Assembly (NCBI RefSeq): GCF_040712075.1
Contig: NZ_JBFCVL010000007.1
Location: 1 to 64,000, forward strand
Direction: 5' to 3'
DNA length: 64,000 bases
Origin: Fodinicurvata sp. EGI_FJ10296
Lineage (GTDB): Bacteria > Pseudomonadota > Alphaproteobacteria > DSM-16000 > Inquilinaceae
The notes under the pieces are model-generated. The model did no database searches, was not told the DNA's origin, and saw only the letters and a list, made by a program, of their open reading frames with translations. This document shows positions 425 to 26,348 of this stretch, piece by piece (within the stretch, counting starts at the first letter, position 1; each line of letters starts with the position of its first letter). The translations under genes were made by a program, and so were the position numbers.

Positions 425-650
425 ATAGCATGCACGGTGGGGGTGGCAGCCGTCGCCCCTGGGAGGGTCGAAGCTCCCGGCTTAACGGATGGCATCGCCG
501 TAACTTGATGCTGGAATCCTGACCGTCGGCGCGGGATCATGGTAATGATTTGCCGTGTTCGCGGTCGGGGAGCCGTTGGCGTATGTCCAAGTGGTTCGCC
601 ACCAAAGGCCAATGGGGCCGTTTAAGTCCGGCTTTTCGACCTCCCCGACT
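425..650 (+). ncRNA. multi-hairpin structured RNA, copy 1
   Basis: Successive hairpins are visible. H1: GGGGTGGC 440-447 with GTCGCCCC 452-459. H2: GGGAG 461-465 with CTCCC 474-478, 8-nt loop ending GAAG. H3: GCATC 492-496 with GATGC 507-511, extended by GGAT 487-490 with ATCC 516-519. H4: ATCAT 536-540 with ATGAT 545-549. A 10-bp closing helix P1 pairs 563-572 with 641-650. It encloses P2 (573-580 with 608-615), P3 (GTGG 591-594 with CCAC 599-602, TTCG loop) and P4 (GCCG 617-620 with CGGC 629-632). The P2/P3 internal loop holds GTATGTCCA (581-589) and CAAAG (603-607). The same architecture with different stem bases occurs at 25255-25512. Orientation follows the downstream gene at 720. I do not recognise the Rfam family; the ends are approximate. 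Confidence 0.7.
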
Positions 651-24969: not shown

Positions 24970-25254
24970 TCAAATGACGACAAATCACCCTCGCTCCCCA
25001 AATATATATCTCATCAACGGAATACTTTCATCCCTGTTGCCTGGCCGATATTGCCCGGCCCACGCCTGAGCGGCGGCAGGAGCAGATCGCTGCTCAGGCC
25101 GATGCCGACCTGCAAAAATTGCAGGACCCAATGCTGGCCGACCTGAACGACGAATGAGGCAGGGGTGACCTCCGCAATGCACAGCTTCTCGGGCTTAGTC
25201 TGAGTCTGACTACGTGTTCCACAATTTATTGGCGAATAATACCCCGGCTTGGTA
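24970..25254. other. region with a possible gene remnant
   Basis: No intact gene. A plus-strand frame ending at 25156 reads DIARPTPERRQEQIAAQ and ADADLQKLQDPMLADLNDE, a plausible charged C-terminal tail, but it has no start codon after the previous stop. It may be the stump of a deleted gene. Family unknown. Confidence 0.3.
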
Positions 25255-25512
25255 GCATTTTTGGCGGAACCGCAGCATGCGGTTCCGGGGTTTGAAAGCC
25301 CCTACTCCATAGGTTGGCGCCGCCTGTCTGGCGCCCTGAACCCTGGCCGTGGAACGGTTGACAGGCAATGGGGATCGTGTACCCACACTGATCTTGCTTG
25401 TGCTTTGTCATGTCTCCGGTCGGGGGGCCGTCTGCGTATGTCCAGGCGCCCCGGTAACGGGCGCTAAAGGCAGGCGGAGCCGCCTTGGAGTCGGCCTTTC
25501 AACCCCCCGACC
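25255..25512 (+). ncRNA. multi-hairpin structured RNA, copy 2
   Basis: Same order of elements as at 425-650. H1: GGAACCGCA 25266-25274 with TGCGGTTCC 25278-25286. H2: GGGG 25287-25290 with CCCC 25299-25302, 8-nt loop ending AAAG. H3: GGCGCC 25316-25321 with GGCGCC 25330-25335, extended by GGTT 25312-25315 with AACC 25339-25342. H4: GATC, GTGT (25373-25380) with ACAC (25385-25388), GATC (25390-25393). P1: 25418-25427 with 25503-25512, ten perfect pairs. P2: 25428-25435 with 25470-25477. P3: GCGCCC 25446-25451 with GGGCGC 25459-25464. P4: GCCG 25479-25482 with CGGC 25492-25495. Internal loop GTATGTCCA (25436-25444) is identical to copy 1 and TAAAG (25465-25469) differs only in the first base. 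Boundaries are approximate. Confidence 0.72.
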
Positions 25513-25584
25513 ATTATTGCTGCCTGCCGTCCCCTCGCCCCATGGCGTCGGAACGGCGGGCAGTCATCGAGAACGGGGGCACGA

Positions 25585-26007
25585 ATGCCAGCACCACACC
25601 TGACGACGACACCGGCCGATTTCCTTCTTGCGCCCGAGAGCCCATGGCGCGGCACGCCGGTCGAACGCGAAATCCGCCGCGCCGTCGCCTATAACATGAT
25701 CCGCTGTCGCCAGAAGCGTGGCTGGTCGATGCGCAAGATCTCCATCTGGCTGAATTCAACGCCGGAGCGCGTCGCCGCCCTCGAACTGGGGCACGAGACC
25801 GCGTCCGCCGCCGAATTGTTCTGTCTGGCCGGATTGTTCGATGTGACGCTGGAACGCATGGTCATGCCGACCGCCAGCCCGCCAGCCCCATCGGCCGAAT
25901 TTCTCGCCGCCCCCAACCCGGTCCCCGACCCGGAGCATGAGGAACTGATCTTCGACGACCCCACCCTGCCCGATCTTCGGCAGCTTCTCGAAAGCAGGGG
26001 GCGATAG
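25585..26007 (+). CDS. XRE-like helix-turn-helix protein
   Basis: 140 residues. The middle (YNMIRCRQKRGWSMRKISI, WLNSTPERVAALELG, ELFCLAGLFDVTLERM) has the layout of a Cro/C1-type helix-turn-helix. The proline-rich C-terminal third is unlike known regulators. It starts at ATG 25585 after GGGGG, 72 nt past the last paired base of the structured RNA. A phage or mobile-element regulator is likely; targets unknown. The next feature downstream is the cobalamin riboswitch. Confidence 0.65.
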   Translation: MPAPHLTTTPADFLLAPESPWRGTPVEREIRRAVAYNMIRCRQKRGWSMRKISIWLNSTPERVAALELGHETASAAELFCLAGLFDVTLERMVMPTASPPAPSAEFLAAPNPVPDPEHEELIFDDPTLPDLRQLLESRGR

Positions 26008-26112
26008 CCAAAGCGGGCGTCGTTCAATTCCGACTGAATCACCTCAAGCCAGCCCTGCACCACCGGGCTTTCCCTTGCAAATGACGGCCGTCCCTGCAAG
26101 GATCGGGCATCA

Positions 26113-26300
26113 GGATGGTGCCTGGCCCGAGCGACCGACGGGCCGGGAGAATAGGGAATGCGGTGCGGAGCATGATGGCTCCAATGCCGCGGCTGCCCCC
26201 GCAACTGTGGTCGGGAAGCCTCACCCCGCGGAACCACTGGCCATTGGCCGGGAAGGTCGGGGGAAAGGCGATGATCCGAGAGCCAGGAGACCTGCCATCC
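26113..26300 (+). ncRNA. cobalamin (adenosylcobalamin) riboswitch
   Basis: Clear consensus blocks in order: GAATAGGGAATGCGGTG (26149 on), GGCTGCCCCCGCAACTG (26191-26207), CGGGAAGG (about 26247 on), GCGATGATCCGAGAG, and the B12 box AGCCAGGAGACCTGCC (26281-26296). GGATGG (26113-26118) pairs with CCATCC (26295-26300) as P1. It precedes cobG by about 50 nt and should switch off the corrin operon when adenosylcobalamin is plentiful. No T-run terminator is evident before the ATG, so translational control is more likely. Confidence 0.93.
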
Positions 26301-26348
26301 ACCCCCATTTTGTCCGACCGTCGGGTGTGGCGGTGGAAGGATGTGACA

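Follow-up and report, generated by a model that had tools for sequence, protein, structure and literature searches.

The 64,000-nucleotide stretch of Fodinicurvata sp. EGI_FJ10296 DNA analysed here (the window) carries the same multi-helix RNA at ~432–650 (copy 1) and ~25259–25512 (copy 2), and comparison with homologues strongly supports this element as a selected structured RNA. It is best read as a leader rather than a free-standing gene, probably one that acts in cis, in the manner of a riboswitch, and keeps the accessory gene just behind it off by default. Of such RNAs, the final third alone had been catalogued before, as a small RNA of unknown function.

Two copies of one RNA in the window

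Both copies lie on the plus strand and share one order of parts: promoter-like boxes, the RNA, an 11-bp hairpin and a gene. In copy 1, the boxes TTGTAC-N17-TAGCAT (403–431), a putative promoter, are followed by hairpin H1 (GGGGTGGC/GTCGCCCC, 440–459), hairpin H2 (GGGAG-GGTCGAAG-CTCCC, 461–478, with an 8-nt loop of the type NKTNRNAA) and the anti-P1 strand TCCTGACC (517–524), which forms 8 of 8 pairs with 563–570 to give helix P0; these three were checked pair by pair. Between H2 and anti-P1 lies an H-type pseudoknot (485–512; S1 485–488/498–501, S2 491–497/506–512), seen in the pair check, a per-sequence search and an alignment. Where the earlier note had described 'H3' (GCATC/GATGC with GGAT/ATCC), this pseudoknot is the better explanation. 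The 3' domain (563–650) comprises P1 (563–572/641–650), P2 (573–580/608–615), an internal loop (581–590 and 603–607), P3 (591–595/598–602) and P4 (617–620/629–632); its stems covary among relatives, and it scores 90.0 bits with R1, our covariance model of the 3' domain (87 positions), and 17.9 bits with the Rfam family RF02221. The 11-bp hairpin 3' of P1 (659–699) occupies the position of a terminator and is followed by CTTAT, without a real U-tract. The gene behind it (720–1172), whose product was compared with Pfam, PHROGs and PADLOC, encodes a phage-type DprA-like DNA recombination-mediator protein (phrog_768, E 3.8e-52; weak match to PF02481).

Copy 2 begins with the boxes TTGGCG-N18-TAGCAT (25229–25258), again a putative promoter, followed by a 9-bp H1 (25266–25286) confirmed by pair check, H2 (GGGG-TTTGAAAG-CCCC, 25287–25302) confirmed by pair check and by the count of H2 hairpins, and an H-type pseudoknot (25309–25335; S1 25309–25313/25323–25327, S2 25316–25321/25330–25335) confirmed by pair check and per-sequence search. 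Its anti-P1 strand, CCCTGGCC (25341–25348), forms 8 of 8 pairs with 25418–25425 as P0, in agreement with the own-versus-swapped test described below. The 3' domain (25418–25512; R1 88.3 bits, RF02221 23.8 bits) contains P1 (25418–25427/25503–25512), P2 (25428–25435/25470–25477), the internal loop GTATGTCCAG/TAAAG, P3 (25446–25451/25459–25464) and P4 (25479–25482/25492–25495), and is followed by an 11-bp hairpin without U-tract (25520–25563). The downstream gene (25585–26007) encodes a small protein with a helix-turn-helix-like sequence that matched no family in family searches and has paralogues behind two other elements, L002 and L044. Directly 3' of this gene, on the same strand, lies a cobalamin riboswitch (RF00174, 117 bits, 26099–26313).

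The earlier note's claim of two structured RNAs with shared stems was borne out base pair by base pair: the stems it quoted are present in both places, and H1 measures 8 and 9 bp in copies 1 and 2, P1 10 and 10, P2 8 and 8, and P3 5 and 6. It had also described the loops correctly: the internal loop GTATGTCCA has the same letters in both copies, and the YAAAG opposite reads CAAAG in copy 1 and TAAAG in copy 2. Each copy folds better than every one of its dinucleotide-preserving shuffles (fold energy z = -5.0 for copy 1 and -7.3 for copy 2). That account did not include the location immediately 5' of genes, the pseudoknot, the alternative pairings or the genome's other five copies.

Covariation and strand of the RNA

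Homologues of the 3' domain keep its pairs while changing its letters. Across 85 homologues, 96.3% of paired cells can pair, as compared to 68.6% after shuffling and 34–49% when partners are slid, and 25 of the 26 pairs have changed on both sides. Tested on 160 sequences against a null in which substitutions are placed anew along the tree, 17 of the 26 pairs are significant at E ≤ 0.05, and so is a single pair beyond the model, which lengthens P4 by one base pair; this test is our own script after the manner of R-scape, not R-scape itself. Apart from this and the corresponding test of the 5' domain (32 sequences), the statistics in this work take no account of shared ancestry. These data strongly support the original proposal of a selected RNA with covarying stems. 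Moreover, on the plus strand 212 cells hold a G-U pair and 19 an A-C pair, which identifies the plus-strand RNA as the selected molecule. The internal loop is near-invariant (A21 in 158/160 sequences, T22 in 159/160, G23 in 156/160, and the opposite AAA in 160/160), figures to be read with the bias of the second half of the 160-sequence set, which was fetched with a motif containing the loop; the 85 sequences of the alignment (A7) come mostly from R1.

The 5' domain was aligned in 32 sequences across H1, H2, the pseudoknot and P0. H1 covaries in this alignment and is variable, with 72% of cells pairing, while P0 is paired in 93.9%. An H2-type hairpin precedes 94 of 162 elements, as compared to 1.0 expected. 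For the pseudoknot we relied on per-sequence searches and pair counts: S1 pairs in 91% and S2 in 95% of cells, and a single-sequence search finds it in 56% of H2-bearing elements, both window copies included, versus 5–11% of shuffles. Under the tree-preserving null, the 5' domain alone gave no significant pairs, because its 32 sequences are too few and too similar. Promoter-like boxes stand immediately 5' of H1/H2 in 25% of relatives versus 6.6% of shuffles.

Relation to sRNA-Xcc1

At the gathering threshold, an Rfam 15 scan of the window matched one family, the cobalamin riboswitch, at a site apart from both copies. The earlier note could not assign the RNA to a known family, which holds at Rfam's curated thresholds, but not below them: RF02221, sRNA-Xcc1, aligns with the 3' domain over its full length (1–87/87), and the 17.9 and 23.8 bits of copies 1 and 2 fall below its gathering threshold of 53. 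Scr3920, 6C, SAM-Chlorobi, adapt33_4 and c4-a1b1, which appeared at E ≤ 10, were weak and not common to both copies, and were set aside.

Intermediate sequences join the two groups. The best RF02221 score among the other copies in the source genome is 29.8 bits, plasmid intermediates reach 33–35 bits, and some alphaproteobacterial genomes hold copies above threshold; conversely, R1, built only from sequences near the window copies, reaches canonical sRNA-Xcc1 members weakly, at 27–28 bits. The internal loop is graded as well, with intermediates UAUGCAACA (L008, L009) and UAUACAACA (L055). From the full-length sub-threshold alignment, the intermediates and the weak reciprocal matches, we conclude that the 3' domain and sRNA-Xcc1 are divergent relatives, with the window copies outside the family by Rfam cut-off and by loop sequence.

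For the 5' half (promoter-like boxes, H1, H2, pseudoknot and anti-P1 strand) Rfam has no counterpart; pieces of it also stand ahead of sRNA-Xcc1-type loci. Since H2-type hairpins precede 14 of 42 loci found with RF02221 (0.2 expected), the Rfam model probably covers just the 3' third of these RNAs. The same loci tend to be followed by a gene start, in 22/42 cases versus 8/41 on the mirror side. In Xcc, sRNA-Xcc1 was mapped by RACE as a discrete 88-nt RNA and ran at ~100 nt on Northern blots (PMC2996969), and an independent study reports it 5' of symE, within integron cassettes of Xanthomonas (PMC12444791).

Distribution

R1 finds seven copies of the 3' domain in the source genome. Of 385 alphaproteobacterial genomes searched, 47 have matches, the richest of them 9 copies. 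A further pattern match in the source genome (L005) is not found by R1 and was taken as a chance match. Among 398 genomes sampled across the phylum, 35 have R1 matches, 18 of them outside Alphaproteobacteria. Among the matches listed by a motif scan of named genomes are loci in Sphingomonas, Rhizobium, Rickettsia, Micavibrio, Magnetococcales and others; nearly all of the 80 loci listed are confirmed by R1. Matches to the closing hairpin domain lie in 76 plasmid records, of which 65 are typed conjugative, and copies also stand upstream of genes without sign of a plasmid. Rhizobium etli has several copies, one of them on plasmid p42d at 193181–193263 (gene RHE_RS30285); in the main text of the R. 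etli tiling-array paper we found no mention of the p42d loci. A viral origin was rejected: just 9 of 80 viral loci bearing the sequence motif hold a true element, and two queries of phage records gave 0 and 2 matches.

Some elements stand in close tandem or divergent pairs (L069, L156, L206 and L018/L138); the copies at L069 (1382–1465 and 1501–1585) are 35 nt apart. One genome of 1.4 Mb (G094; loci L017 and L122–L131) holds thirteen sRNA-Xcc1-type copies, several of them ahead of genes for small paralogous proteins with a common motif such as ELAHYDIK.

Position before genes of many kinds

An open reading frame starts within 200 nt downstream of 173 of 179 distinct elements, at a median distance of 56 nt, and 133 elements are followed by an ATG with a Shine-Dalgarno match of at least 4, as compared to 14/172 when the other strand is read outward from the 5' end. 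Where there is a terminator, its stem lies a median of 30 nt from the start codon (within 45 nt in 35 of 44), a gap so short that it leaves no room for a separate promoter. The element thus has the 5'-leader location by which riboswitches and cis-acting attenuators are recognised, and a leader rather than a free-standing gene appears to be the best reading of its position.

The downstream proteins form 111 clusters, many of them accessory. They include DNA methyltransferases (EcoRI-type, C5, type IIG and type III), a restriction enzyme resembling GmrSD, DUF4268 and PD-(D/E)XK proteins, phage antirepressors, Rha, ORF6N and AntA regulators, plasmid regulators, HTH and DUF2285/RovC-type proteins, adhesins, autotransporter-like proteins, pilin-like proteins and glycosyltransferases. 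Genes for Rha-like or antirepressor phage regulators recur behind the element in prophage-like loci (L045, L049, L014, L132–L134, L277 and L267), with both window-type and sRNA-Xcc1-type versions.

Alternative pairings of P1

Two mutually exclusive pairings are supported over the family: anti-P1 would compete with P1, and the 3' tail of P1 would be shared with an intrinsic terminator. A U-tract terminator follows 32% of 166 elements versus 9% of shuffles; 47 of 53 terminators start inside the 3' tail of P1, and the stem across P1 tail and downstream sequence averages 3.8 bp with an element's own sequence versus 1.3 bp with a swapped one. Counted in isolation, pairing of P1's 5' strand with upstream sequence separates poorly from shuffles (7.8 versus 6.4 bases), and an own-versus-swapped test was substituted for it: the anti-P1/P1 duplex has -13.5 kcal/mol with its own partner and -10.6 with swapped partners (125 of 166 elements better, 26 worse). 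In nearly all of 47 cases, folded without the pseudoknot or any factor, the state with P0 and terminator is predicted to be the more stable; the mean advantage is 6.2 kcal/mol.

The window copies keep both P0 and P1, and their 11-bp hairpin, without U-tract, does not overlap P1. A duplex of the P1 3' strand with the Shine-Dalgarno sequence is slightly better with its own partner (-9.3) than with swapped ones (-8.4), which is suggestive at best of masking of this site by P1. A plasmid subfamily (L006–L011, L052–L054) has a conserved hairpin, GCGGGGGCGYACCGC, between P1 and the start codon, likewise without U-tract.

Discussion

Computational analysis establishes a conserved structure, the strand that is the RNA and a site in front of genes, and supports exclusive pairings across the family, with P0 and the terminator as the predicted default state. 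The element probably functions as a cis-acting, riboswitch-like leader of the accessory gene just behind it. Transcription would start just 5' of H1; H1, H2 and the pseudoknot would fold first, and the anti-P1 strand would then pair with the 5' strand of P1 as helix P0. Were P0 to persist, the 3' strand of P1 would remain free, and in lineages with a U-tract its last 4–5 nt would form the base of the terminator stem and transcription would stop (OFF). Were something to stabilise the P1–P4 domain with its near-invariant loop UAUGUYCAR/YAAAG, P1 would displace P0, the terminator would lose its base and RNA polymerase would read into the gene (ON). We infer this direction of switching from three observations: terminators share the P1 tail, anti-P1 pairs with P1, and P0 with the terminator is the favoured state. 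Against the leader model stands the U-tract terminator itself, which our own scan finds in only about one third of elements and in neither window copy; copies of this kind may use another read-out, such as masking of the ribosome-binding site or a different mode of termination. Because the downstream genes are so varied, the data suggest that a general signal or factor for accessory genes, rather than feedback from one metabolite, would be sensed.

Among the alternatives, a processive antitermination RNA like HK022 put, free of ligand and binding RNA polymerase so that later terminators and pauses in acquired operons are passed, would account for the site ahead of terminators and accessory operons, for downstream genes as unrelated as those of phage, plasmid, polysaccharide and adhesin functions, and for the conserved internal loop; put itself works by direct contact of nascent RNA with RNA polymerase (PMC9378689). 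The exclusivity of P0, P1 and terminator, which points to a switch at the adjacent terminator of which put has no need, makes this account rather improbable. It is also unlikely that the element acts in trans as an independent small RNA, the annotation given to sRNA-Xcc1, with an incidental or co-inherited gene behind it: the detection of the discrete 88-nt RNA (PMC2996969) and the strong terminators that close the element in many lineages speak for this reading, but it leaves unexplained the same-strand, Shine-Dalgarno-bearing reading frames at tight distance (133 versus 14 on the other side) ahead of 111 clusters, the gap from terminator to start codon offers a separate promoter no space, and no conserved single-stranded seed was noticed. 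The 88-nt RNA fits a stable small RNA, though processing or termination of a leader could also yield it. Folded DNA in the leading region of conjugative plasmids, such as a single-stranded-DNA promoter of the Frpo type, suggested by the preponderance of conjugative types among matched plasmids, is very improbable, being largely refuted by the G-U and A-C counts, which show selection on the plus-strand RNA and not on its DNA complement, and by copies ahead of genes without plasmid signs.

Bacteria must control the plasmid, prophage and defence genes that reach them, and to our knowledge RNA-level gates for incoming mobile genes are barely known. A single RNA architecture ahead of many unrelated accessory families would be a shared switch of mobile DNA. 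We tentatively propose, as a possibility somewhat short of an even chance, a new riboswitch-like class, common among Alphaproteobacteria and found in other Pseudomonadota too, by which a single common signal or transcription factor gates horizontally acquired genes collectively: a leader of 200–300 nt with a pseudoknot, whose 3' third has been mistaken for a stand-alone sRNA. The unexplained sRNA-Xcc1 family would gain a testable function, with catalogued boundaries that our data suggest are too short, and the strand-exchange model makes direct predictions for mutants.

Among known systems, HK022 put resembles the element in role only, being a leader on mobile DNA that acts as nascent RNA before terminators are reached (PMC9378689), and as described lacks the local strand exchange proposed here. 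Riboswitches that attenuate transcription by exchange between P1 and terminator share with the element a P1-closed domain, an anti-P1 strand, a start codon right behind and, where a U-tract terminator is present, its use of the 3' tail of P1; whereas those precede genes of one pathway, the element precedes 111 clusters and has no detected U-tract terminator in about two thirds of cases. With sRNA-Xcc1 it shares the P1[P2-internal loop-P3][P4]-P1 architecture over the whole model, with covarying P1–P4 here, an A-rich conserved internal loop, and a Shine-Dalgarno sequence and ATG behind. The loop of sRNA-Xcc1 is AUACAA/GAAUA, whereas the window copies have UAUGUCCA/YAAAG; the RF02221 model lacks their 5' half; and sRNA-Xcc1 is annotated as a free sRNA, whereas we read the window RNAs as leaders.
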